From Arthrobacter sp. zg-Y1110 (lineage in GTDB: Bacteria > Actinomycetota > Actinomycetes > Actinomycetales > Micrococcaceae), in NCBI RefSeq assembly GCF_025244865.1, contig NZ_CP104272.1:1364001-1428000 (forward strand): DNA of 64,000 nucleotides. Direction: 5' to 3'. Every line of letters starts with the position of its first letter. The first letter of the stretch is position 1. Positions 43,337 through 51,496 of the stretch are shown piece after piece. The notes beneath the pieces were generated by a model, which was given only the letters and a program-made list of their open reading frames with translations, was not told the origin of the DNA and ran no database searches. A program made the translations under genes and the position numbers.

Positions 43337-44797
43337 TTGCTTAGTGGCAAACGGGCCTTAAAGGGCCCGGCTAAACTGGCCGTACCGCTGACCACCTTCC
43401 TCGCAACCCTGGCTTTGCTGCTGGGGATACCTGCGGCCGGAGCCTTTGCAGCGGACGGCGTCGAGGGTGAGACCTTCGTCATCGGCACCGATACCACCTT
43501 CGCACCGTTCGAATTCCGTGAAAACGGCGAACTGGTCGGTATCGATATGGACCTTCTCAACGCAATCGCCGAGGAGGAGGGCTTCAATGTCGAAATCCAG
43601 TCCCTCGGCTTTGACGCGGCACTGCAGTCGCTGCAGTCCAACCAGGTGGACGGCGTCATCGCCGGCATGTCCATCACCGACGAGCGCCGGCAGGTCTTCG
43701 ACTTCTCGGATCCGTACTTCGAGTCCGGCATCCAGATGGCCGTCGCCGAGAACAACGACGACGTCGCCGGGTACGAGGATCTTCGCGGCAAGCGCGTAGC
43801 GGTCAAGACCGGGACAGAAGGTCAGACGTTCGCCGAGTCCATCAAGGACGAGTACGGCTTTGAGGTGGTTGCGTTCGCGCAGTCCGCCCAGATGTACGAC
43901 GACGTCAAGGCCGGCGGCTCCGTGGCCGTGTTTGATGATTACCCCGTGCTTGCCTACGGTGTGGCTTCCGGCAACGGCCTGAAGACCGTCACCGAGAAGG
44001 AAGCCGGCAGCTCGTACGGTTTCGCCGTGAACAAGGGTGCCAACCCCGAACTCCTCACCGCCTTCAACGCCGGCCTCGCCGACCTGAAGGAAAGCGGCGA
44101 ATACGACGAAATCCTGGACACCTACCTGGAAGCCGGCGCCAAGGACTCAAGCTTCTGGTCCCTCATCACGGACAACGGCCCGGCCTTCGCCAAGGGCATG
44201 GGGCTGACCCTGCTGGCAACCGCACTGTCGTTGCTCTTCGCGCTCGTCCTGGGCGTGTTCTTCGGCTTCCTGAAGGTCGGCTCGTCAAAGATCCTGCGCG
44301 GCATCGCCACCGTGTACGTGAGTATTTTCCGCGGCACCCCGGTGCTGGTCCAGGCCTTCTTCTTCTACTTCGGCCTGCCGCAGATCATCGGCCAGCCGGT
44401 GGACGTGCTGACGGCCGGCGTGCTGACCCTGAGCCTCAACGCGGGCGCCTACATGACCGAGATTGTCCGCGGCGGCATCCAGTCCGTGGATCCCGGCCAG
44501 ATGGAAGCGGCACGCAGCCTCGGACTGGGCTACGGGAAGACCATGCAGAAGGTCATCATTCCCCAGGCCATCAAGATCATGACGCCTTCCTTCATCAACC
44601 AGTTCGTCATTACCTTGAAGGACACCTCCCTGCTTGCCGTTATCGGCTTTGCGGAGCTGACGTACCAGGGCCAGCAGATCTACGCGGTGAACTTCCGTAC
44701 CGCAGAGGTCCTGATCATCGTGGCGGCCCTGTACTTCATCGTCATTACGCTGCTGACCAAGCTGGCGGACGTCCTGGATAAGAGGTTTAACAAGTGA
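43337..44797 (+). CDS. Amino-acid ABC transporter: substrate-binding protein fused to permease
   Basis: A 486-residue fusion. A signal-anchor (about 14-38) leads to a periplasmic-type binding domain of the glutamine/polar amino-acid family (about 46-265: [53 protein letters not shown]). Then comes a HisM/GlnP-type permease with several helices (about 290-480) and the EAA loop [23 protein letters not shown] that docks the ATPase. Tethered binding-protein/permease fusions of this GlnPH type occur in Gram-positives. A TTG start at 43337 is supported by AGGAG 9 nt upstream. The ATPase gene overlaps the stop. Glutamine, glutamate or a related amino acid is the likely substrate given the glnA2-glnE neighbours, but this is not proven. 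Confidence 0.93.
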
Positions 44798-45522
44798 GCA
44801 AGATCCAAACCATCGGACTGCGGAAGTCCTACGGATCCAACGAGGTCCTCAAGGGCCTGGACGTCAGCGTGGCCGAAGGCGAAGTGGTCTGCGTGATCGG
44901 CCCCTCCGGCTCCGGCAAGTCCACGTTCCTGCGCTGCCTGAACAAGCTCGAAGACATCACCGGCGGCACGGTGAAAGTTGACGGTTTCGACCTCACCGAT
45001 CCGAAGGTGAACCTGAACGAGGTGCGCCAGCACATCGGCATGGTCTTCCAGCACTTCAACCTGTTCCCGCACATGAGCGTGCTGGACAACATCATGCTCG
45101 CTCCGGTGCAGCTGAAGAAGGCACCGAAGGCCGAGGTCCGCAAGACCGCGCTGGCACTGCTGGACCGGGTTGGCCTGGCAGACAAGGCCGACGCACGCCC
45201 GGCTCAGCTGTCCGGCGGCCAGAAGCAGCGTGTGGCTATTGCCCGCGCGCTGGCCATGCAGCCTGACATCATGCTCTTCGACGAGGCCACCTCTGCCCTC
45301 GACCCGGAAATGGTGGGCGAAGTGCTCCAGGTCATCCGTGACCTGGCCCGGGAAGGCATGACCATGGTCGTTGTCACCCACGAAATGGGCTTCGCCCGCG
45401 AAGTCGCCGACCGCGTGATCTTCATGGCCGACGGCCACATTGTCGAAGAGAACACCCCGGAGCTGCTCTTCGGCAGCCCGCAGGCTCCGCGGCTTCAGGA
45501 CTTCCTGGCCAAGGTGCTCTAG
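44794..45522 (+). CDS. Amino-acid ABC transporter ATP-binding protein
   Basis: A 242-residue GlnQ/HisP-type ATPase that drives the upstream fused transporter. Walker A is GPSGSGKST (36-44), followed by the Q-loop [14 protein letters not shown], the signature [15 protein letters not shown], Walker [13 protein letters not shown], the D-loop and the switch His in [19 protein letters not shown] 44794 overlaps the stop of the permease fusion (gtga), so subunit synthesis is coupled. It forms a homodimer with two permease copies, a complete importer from two genes. Confidence 0.96.
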
Positions 45523-49383: not shown

Positions 49384-50808
49384 TTAAACGCCGTAGTACA
49401 GCTCGAACTCGAACGGGTTCGGGCGCAGTGCCAGCGGCATGATTTCGAATTCACGCTTGTACGAGATCCAGCTGTCGATCATGTCCTGGGTGAACACGCC
49501 GCCGGCCTGGAGGAACTCGTTGTCGTTCTCCAGGGCAACCAGTGCCTCTTCGAGCGATGCCGGTGCCTTCTGGATGTGCTTGGCCTCTTCGGGCGGCAGC
49601 TCGTAGAGGTCCTTGTCGATCGGGTCCGCCGGCTCGATGCGGTTCTTGATGCCGTCCAGGCCCGCCATCAGCTGTGCGGAGAACGCCAGGTACGGGTTGG
49701 AGGAGGGATCCGGAGCGCGGAACTCGAGGCGCTTGGCCTTCGGATTGGAACCGGTGATCGGGATGCGGATAGCGGCGGAACGGTTGCCCTGCGAGTAGAC
49801 CATGTTCACGGGAGCTTCGAAGCCCTTGACCAGGCGGCGGTAGGAGTTGACCGTCGGGTTGGTGAAGGCAAGCACGGCCGAGGCATGCTTCAGCAGGCCG
49901 CCGATGTACCAGCGGGCCAGGTCGGACAGGCCGGCGTAGCCCTTCTCGTCGTAGAACAGCGGCACGCCGCCGTTCCACAGCGACTGGTGGCAGTGCATGC
50001 CCGAACCGTTGTCACCGAAGATCGGCTTCGGCATGAAGGTGGCGGACTTGCCCCAGGCATCGGCCACGTTCTTGACGATGTACTTGAACTTCTGCAGATC
50101 GTCGGCCGCATGCGTCAGCGTGGTGAACTTGTAGTTGATCTCAGCCTGGCCGGCACCGCCGACCTCGTGGTGGGCACGCTCGACTTCGAGGCCCACGTTG
50201 TCCAGCTCCACGCTGATGGCGTCACGCAGGTCGGCCTGCTTGTCCACGGGTGCCACGGGGAAGTAGCCGCCCTTGTACGGGGTCTTGTTGCCCAGGTTGC
50301 CGCCCTCTTCCTCGCGGCCGCTGTTCCAGGGCGCCTCCTCGGAGTCCACCTTGTAGAAGCTGCCCTTGGGGGAGGACTCGTACTGGACGTTGTCGAAGAT
50401 GTAGAACTCGGCCTCGGAACCGAAGAAAGCCGTGTCGGCGATGCCGGTGGAGGCCAGATAGGCCTCGGCACGCTCGGCAACGCCGCGCGGGTCGCGGTGG
50501 TACGGCTCGCCGGTGCGGGGGTTCACAATCGAGAAGTTCAGCGCCAGGGTCTTCTCGATGCGGAAGGGATCAATAAACGCCGTCGTGACATCCGGGATGA
50601 GCTGCATGTCGGACTCTGCAATGCCCTGGAAGCCGCGGATGGATGAGCCGTCGAACAGCTGACCGTTGACGAAGAAATCGGCATCTACGGTTTTGGCCGG
50701 CACATTGAAGTGCTGCTGCACTCCGGGTACGTCGGTGAATCGGATGTCGACGAACTTCACTTGCTCGTCAGCGATGAACCTGAGGACTTCGTCCGCGTTC
50801 TTGAACAT
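49384..50808 (-). CDS. glnA: Glutamine synthetase type I (main)
   Basis: A 474-residue GSI-beta enzyme forming glutamine from glutamate, ammonia and ATP as a dodecamer. Signatures: [79 protein letters not shown]. The adenylylation loop [10 protein letters not shown] carries Tyr402, the AMP acceptor for GlnE (encoded at 40.2 kb). ATG 50808 has ATAGGAGT about 8 nt upstream. A perfect four-part GlnR operator lies 113-150 bp upstream, predicting activation under nitrogen limitation. It diverges from the RDD gene, as rv2219A-glnA1 do in arrangement order in M. tuberculosis. Confidence 0.98.
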
Positions 50809-50904
50809 CGTTTATGTACTCCTATACAACTGTTTGGGTGGAAGACCTCGGGCTGCAAGACCTGGCTGGCGCCGGGCCCTTTGAACGTCCGGCGGCTCAC
50901 CTTG

Positions 50905-50910
50905 ACCCTA
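50905..50910 (-). promoter_or_regulatory. Possible -10 hexamer of glnA1
   Basis: TAGGGT on the minus strand lies 10 bp downstream of the GlnR operator. The -35 position (ACCGCC) is poor and falls inside the operator, as expected for an activator-dependent promoter. Confidence 0.45.
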
Positions 50911-50920
50911 AAGGGGTCGG

Positions 50921-50958
50921 GTTTCCCGGCGGTGACACATGTGTTTCCGGTACGTTAC
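50921..50958 (-). promoter_or_regulatory. GlnR operator (four half-sites) upstream of glnA1
   Basis: On the minus strand, GTAAC, GAAAC, GTCAC and GAAAC follow one another, each separated by exactly 6 bp. This matches the actinomycete GlnR consensus gTnAC-n6-GaAAC-n6-GTnAC-n6-GAAAC at every defined position. Confidence 0.9.
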
Positions 50959-51043
50959 GCAGTCGATGGTCTCTCTTCCACCCTATCCGCAACCTCGGGG
51001 GACAGTGATAACGGAGTGTTTATTTCCGCCGTTGCCACCCGGG

Positions 51044-51049
51044 TAGTCT
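51044..51049 (+). promoter_or_regulatory. -10 hexamer of the leaderless RDD gene
   Basis: TAGTCT ends 6 nt before the GTG start at 51056. Confidence 0.5.
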
Positions 51050-51055
51050 TTAACC

Positions 51056-51496
51056 GTGGTCGATAGAAGCGATATAGGTTCCTGGCTGGAAGGCCCTCCC
51101 TCCGACGAGAGTACGTGGCCGGGCAAACGCCTCGGCCGCCCGCGTACCGGCCCGGGGTCCATTGCGCGCGTCGGCCCCCGCCTGGGCGCCTTGGTGATCG
51201 ACTGGGCCATCGCCTCGCTCATTGCCTACTGGCTCTTCGGCGGAGATGACTTCGCCATCCTGGCGATCTTCGCCGTCGAGCAGATCCTGCTCGTCAGCCT
51301 GCTCGGTTACAGCATCGGGCACCGTGTGTTCAGCCTGCAGGTGCAGAAAATGGACGGCCGCGCGGCGGGAATTCCGGCGGCAGTGGTCCGCACGCTGCTG
51401 CTGTGCCTGGTGATTCCGGCGGTGGTGTTCGACGCCGACCAGCGCGGCCTGCACGACCGGGCACTGGGCACGGTGCTGGTGAAGGTTAAACACTAA
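51056..51496 (+). CDS. RDD-family membrane protein
   Basis: A 146-residue protein with the RDD motif set: a basic cytosolic N-terminus, PRLGALVIDWAIASLIAYW (first helix with R and D), a second helix AILAIFAVEQILLVSLLGYS, GHRVFSLQVQKMDG, and a third helix LLLCLVIPAVVF followed by DQRGLHDRALGTVLV. The family is linked to ion or solute transport in some bacteria, but its role here is unknown. The neighbourhood RDD-glnA1 with DUF4191 and lipA beyond matches M. tuberculosis Rv2219A-glnA1. GTG 51056 is supported by a -10 hexamer 6 nt upstream. Confidence 0.9.
   Translation: MVDRSDIGSWLEGPPSDESTWPGKRLGRPRTGPGSIARVGPRLGALVIDWAIASLIAYWLFGGDDFAILAIFAVEQILLVSLLGYSIGHRVFSLQVQKMDGRAAGIPAAVVRTLLLCLVIPAVVFDADQRGLHDRALGTVLVKVKH

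Follow-up and report, generated by a model that had tools for sequence, protein, structure and literature searches.

The gene glnA1 lies on the minus strand of the window, the 64,000-nucleotide stretch of the Arthrobacter sp. zg-Y1110 genome that was analysed here (Table 1). Its product scores 642.5 bits against TIGR00653 (cut-off 429) and is matched by both Pfam glutamine synthetase models, and glnA1 is this organism's main glutamine synthetase gene. A divergent gene for an RDD-family membrane protein shares the intergenic region with glnA1. On its side of that region, at 51044-51058 of the plus strand, a TAGTCT motif ends 6 nt 5' of the GTG start codon of the RDD gene, which suggests a leaderless transcript. 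About 4 kb past the 3' end of glnA1 there is an amino-acid ABC transporter (43337-45522, plus strand), which, judging from the translations, consists of a fused binding protein-permease followed by an ATPase.

Table 1. Features of the glnA1 locus, in window positions
Feature	Position	Strand	Basis or remark
glnA1, type I glutamine synthetase, 474 aa	49384..50808	-	TIGR00653, PF00120, PF03951
AGGAG, likely glnA1 ribosome-binding site	50819..50823	-	read from sequence
Proximal -10 element TAGGGT	50905..50910	-	begins 11 nt past operator end
Predicted GlnR operator, four half-sites	50921..50958	-	pattern searches of window and genome; conserved in relatives
Half-site a1 GTAAC	50958-50954	-	
Half-site b1 GAAAC	50947-50943	-	
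Half-site a2 GTCAC	50936-50932	-	
Half-site b2 GAAAC	50925-50921	-	
Candidate distal -10 TAGGGT	50980..50985	-	27 nt upstream of operator start; function inferred
Divergent RDD-family membrane protein gene, common intergenic region	51056..51496	+	PF06271, 36.2 bits

The element upstream of glnA1

Upstream of glnA1, a nitrogen-assimilation gene, and on its coding strand, the sequence GTAAC-n6-GAAAC-n6-GTCAC-n6-GAAAC occurs with exact six-base spacers; read on the minus strand from 50958 to 50921, the element is GTAACGTACCGGAAACACATGTGTCACCGCCGGGAAAC. The earlier note had described a perfect match with four half-sites, 113-150 bp 5' of glnA1, and both the match and the distance hold, the latter counted from an ATG at 50808. 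As quoted in the excerpt of PMC10704036 consulted, the GlnR consensus of S. coelicolor is gTnAc-n6-GaAAc-n6-GtnAC-n6-GAAAc, and the element fits it at each defined base.

The pattern that we searched has one exact match in the whole window and one in the 3.9-Mb genome. A chance origin of the element is ruled out by the mean of 0.00 matches over 100 shuffles of the window and by the zero exact matches of a reversed control pattern in the genome. The second-best place in the genome differs from the operator pattern at 2 positions. With up to 3 mismatches allowed, the genome holds 34 matches to the pattern and 22 to the control; thus the weak matches alone carry little information, and the exact site alone is informative by itself. 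Ten of the 34 consist of two overlapping matches in a sequence that is identical at five chromosomal places and resembles, by eye, the start of a 16S rRNA gene.

GlnR and the element across the Micrococcaceae

The OmpR-type DNA-binding domain is matched eight times in the genome. A protein encoded at G000:C1:2795030-2795731 combines such a domain (PF00486) with the GlnR-type receiver domain PF21695 (GlnR_1st; 142 bits, cut-off 27), and because the PF21695 search gave this one match over the genome, GlnR was counted as single. A check for a glnR gene, advised by the earlier note, therefore came out positive, with one GlnR-type regulator encoded. Among the best 25 of 39 NCBIfam rows, no model exceeded its cut-off for the regulator, and Pfam GlnR_1st served as the GlnR criterion. 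The best PDB relatives of the protein are 8hih (E 1e-77) and 8hig (3e-77), labelled in the search table as OmpR-type regulators; we take both to be GlnR and the entries to be the GlnR transcription activation complex. Our GlnR matches the chains of that complex, a likeness seen at the level of sequence, and the stretch TRTVDVHVRRLRAKLGP, presumably the GlnR recognition helix, is identical to both full-length chains. The receiver domain has its own PDB relatives, 4o1h (labelled GlnR) and 4o1i.

On the 3' side of the GlnR gene are a duplicated-GNAT protein and then the start of a polyphosphate-kinase-like frame, which by eye we take to be mshD and ppk. Inspection by eye of the 3.2-kb GlnR locus revealed no kinase gene, consistent with an orphan regulator. 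Asp50 and Arg52, whose roles in GlnR are described in the excerpt of PMC10704036, are present in the receiver; where that source names a third residue, Thr9, our protein has Asn by its own numbering, with a Thr at position 8.

Among 149 genomes of the family, GlnR_1st was over cut-off in 129, only below cut-off in 8 and absent in 12. When the complete GlnR protein was used as query, the top score did not exceed 99 bits in any of the 20 genomes without GlnR over cut-off, and was 205-502 bits in four GlnR-positive genomes. We compared glnA1 upstream regions in 60 of the 149 genomes. These were 41 of the 129 GlnR-positive genomes, hand-picked for genus coverage (27 genera, including that of our organism), and 19 of the 20 GlnR-less ones (L048-L066), which belong to six genera (g12, g15, g17, g18, g22 and g26); G070 was left out of the latter set, as a full-length glnA1 was not among its matches listed.

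A best upstream site with no more than 4 mismatches out of 16 was present in 41/41 GlnR-positive and in 1/19 GlnR-less genomes (Fisher p = 2e-14, uncorrected for shared ancestry and with the 4-mismatch limit chosen after the counts were seen). The control pattern came within the same limit in 2 of 61 glnA1 upstream regions. The GlnR-positive sites all lie on the glnA1 strand and start 86-170 bp before the matched start; 5, 6, 23, 6 and 1 of them have 0, 1, 2, 3 and 4 mismatches, respectively, the one with 4 being that of G043, at a level that the control also reached in 2/61 regions. In 18 of the 19 GlnR-less genomes the best site has 6-7 mismatches; the remaining genome, G046, has 2. The contrast is repeated inside genus g15, where three GlnR-positive genomes have 2, 2 and 3 mismatches and four GlnR-less ones 6, 7, 7 and 7. 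Within one family, then, the site is present with GlnR and absent without it, with G046 as the exception and the GlnR status of g12 less certain, and this contrast serves as a natural experiment linking operator and regulator.

The two qualified cases differ in kind. In genus g18, the GlnR-positive G017 has an exact site, and in G046 both b half-sites differ from those of G017 by one base, which would suit an orphan operator in decay; the alternative is an assembly gap that hides GlnR. In the four g12 genomes, which we scored as GlnR-less, GlnR_1st gives a weak match that stays below cut-off, and the search with the protein finds a nearly full-length relative of 31% identity (72-74 bits), so these genomes may have a divergent GlnR. 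In L050 and L053 (genus g26) a short inverted repeat lies upstream of glnA1 (AAAAGCCTCC and GGAGGCTTTT in L053), and by eye it adjoins an apparent operator remnant. Our literature search, in which subscription journals were little covered, found nothing on GlnR loss in Micrococcaceae.

The same contrast bears on the possibility that the site is occupied mainly by another OmpR-family regulator, such as MtrA, PhoP or a GlnRII-like protein, and only secondarily by GlnR. According to the excerpt of PMC10704036, PhoP and MtrA cross-regulate GlnR targets and a PhoP-protected sequence lies among the amtB boxes, and the eight OmpR-type domains of our genome would supply candidates. However, the 20 genomes without GlnR over cut-off each keep 4-8 relatives of GlnR, yet the site is missing in 18 of the 19 examined, and the 11-bp repeat of GTnAC and GAAAC is itself the GlnR consensus published in that source. 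We therefore rejected MtrA or PhoP as main occupant and regard such a reading as very unlikely.

Control of glnA1 and nitrogen assimilation by AmtR, a TetR-family regulator, as in Corynebacterium, would turn the GlnR-like site into a relic. The part of PMC4222082 consulted lists AmtR for Arthrobacter aurescens TC1; in the table given there, however, it accompanies a urea carboxylase operon, and the best urea carboxylase match in our genome reaches 543 bits against a cut-off of 1304, although an AmtR gene itself may still be present. Because the operator is intact, its presence tracks GlnR and no urea carboxylase is over cut-off, AmtR control was rejected, and we would be greatly surprised to see it reinstated.

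Closer to our organism, a collection scan covered the best 80 glnA1 loci, i.e., the nearest relatives; it is not independent of the family survey, because some genomes may be in both. The site is present in 80/80, always on the glnA1 strand, with 0, 1, 2 and 3 mismatches in 13, 25, 39 and 3 loci, and the reversed control reached 3 mismatches in 1/80 and 4 in 2/80. The closest glnA1 relatives among the matches listed are Arthrobacter.

The operators of glnA and amtB in S. coelicolor and S. venezuelae (Tiffert 2008; PMC3087709, in the portions available) resemble the present one in having tandem half-sites with 6-bp spacers, arranged as two boxes on the coding strand and, for glnA, upstream of that gene. 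Unlike them, sites of this family mostly have A as the second base of the third half-site (29 of 43 aligned sites, namely our own, the 41 GlnR-positive ones and that of G046), whereas the window has GTCAC. Given that exact matches occur in 5 of the 41 GlnR-positive relatives, the present site is nearer to the Streptomyces consensus than most.

Promoter layout and control of glnA1

The spacing between the operator and the proximal -10 element is fixed. In the alignment of 43 family sites, the T, A and T columns of TAnnnT at 11-16 nt past the operator end are conserved in 39, 40 and 40 sequences. Of the best 80 loci, 79 have a TAnnnT starting precisely 11 nt past the operator (33/33 in the Arthrobacter group and 46/47 of the other loci). 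The corresponding -35 zone, which was scored for the window only, overlaps half-sites a2 and b2; none of the hexamers 15-19 nt before the proximal -10 shares more than 2 of its 6 bases with TTGACA, and a sigma-70 scan of the window found no promoter. A -10-like TAGGGT that lacks a good -35, as the earlier note had it, is thus what the window contains. Such a layout is expected where an activator replaces the -35 contact. It also fits the published activation complex (Shi 2023, as reported in the excerpt of PMC10704036), in which four GlnR DNA-binding domains sit head to tail on four half-sites together with RNA polymerase.

Given that the intergenic region is common to two genes, the conserved block could in principle belong to the divergent RDD gene, or have another cause such as an RNA element. 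Against this, the operator stands at a fixed distance from a -10 that points at glnA1, all 41 GlnR-positive genomes sampled and all of the best 80 loci have it on the glnA1 strand, and its absence tracks that of GlnR. On the fixed -10 spacing and the strand toward glnA1 we rejected an element of the divergent gene, and we consider this whole class of explanations extremely improbable.

The 38-bp element is, we are confident, an operator of the OmpR-family regulator GlnR that would activate glnA1. GlnR would bind the four half-sites head to tail, with one DNA-binding domain on each, and thereby sit just upstream of a -10 without a recognisable -35, where it may recruit or stabilise RNA polymerase at the glnA1 promoter. 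Under nitrogen scarcity GlnR would then raise glnA1 transcription, so that more ammonium would be assimilated by glutamine synthetase. The nitrogen signal itself may affect binding, or activation only. In the part of PMC3087709 consulted, GlnR of S. venezuelae occupied the glnA promoter at every time point, even when ammonium was plentiful, and glnA was induced just 1.9-fold; nitrogen may therefore control a step other than binding at glnA.

GlnR control of ammonium assimilation, which the earlier note predicted, gains support from the GlnR gene, from the contrast between 41/41 and 18/19 genomes and from the fixed -10 spacing. The nearest case in the literature is Arthrobacter sp. M7-15, in which glnA was up on nitrate versus ammonium and GlnR was proposed as the controller (excerpt of PMC12010642). 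GlnR sites before glnA are conserved in all but one of the actinomycetes listed in the available text of PMC10704036. A GlnR site before glnA is a known switch in many actinomycetes, and ours is a well supported, expected example of it: GlnR control of ammonium assimilation requires a regulator and a site, and this soil-type, Arthrobacter-type bacterium possesses both. With the fixed spacing, GlnR-activated promoters can additionally be modelled more sharply, as an operator combined with a -10.

A candidate distal promoter and a possible second target

A second TAGGGT, the candidate distal -10, is present upstream of the operator in 8/8 genomes sampled from the organism's own genus. Among the best 80 loci, a second TAnnnT at 25-27 nt upstream of the operator occurs in 26/33 of the Arthrobacter group versus 0/47 of the others. 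Record titles defined the group, except that L138 (title: Arthrobacter sp. MYb213) was counted among the other loci; moving it gives 26/34 and 0/46. The -35 of this distal element is poor (best 3/6). The conservation suggests that in the Arthrobacter group two glnA1 promoters may be placed around one operator, a detail that is new here.

A similar arrangement is described for glnA1 of M. tuberculosis and M. bovis in the excerpt of PMC3852478, where a proximal low-nitrogen promoter with a GlnR site is accompanied by a distal promoter upstream, which is the high-nitrogen promoter. Unlike in mycobacteria, the putative distal -10 here is only 25-27 nt above the operator, and its role is read from conservation in the Arthrobacter group.

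By analogy, the distal promoter could be the one used in nitrogen-rich growth, with GlnR acting as a roadblock to it, while the same bound GlnR activates the proximal promoter. On a distal transcript, GlnR would be bound at about +16 to +53. If so, one operator would switch promoters rather than just add activation, and lineages without GlnR would have lost the operator together with its promoter and would rely on other promoters instead. We put such a promoter switch forward tentatively and think it less likely than not, in part because constant GlnR occupancy, as in the S. venezuelae excerpt, would always block the distal promoter.

Just 5' of the distal -10, 46-47 nt upstream of the operator, some loci carry an inverted repeat, G(A/G)CCAC-n3-GTGGAC, that is absent from the window. 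It occurs in 13/33 loci of the Arthrobacter group (L116, L118-L120, L122, L124, L126, L129, L135-L137, L142 and L169) and in 0/47 other loci among the best 80, and is possibly the site of another regulator.

Two of the 34 weak matches in the genome were followed up, because their position made sense. Both have 3 mismatches, which is inside the background range, and both immediately precede a gene for an ammonium transporter (PF00909, 381.5 bits); the genome holds two more PF00909 genes. In a survey of the organism's own genus, which yielded 20 ammonium transporter loci and 1 of 21 genomes without the locus, a box with at most 5 mismatches lies upstream of the gene in 19/20 loci versus 1/20 for the control pattern; in the L221 locus the best box has 6 mismatches. 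The gene-proximal box is degenerate in its third half-site, and in our genome a -10-like CAGAGT is found 11 nt past the end of this box. The ammonium transporter gene is followed by a 112-aa frame that, by eye, resembles a PII protein.
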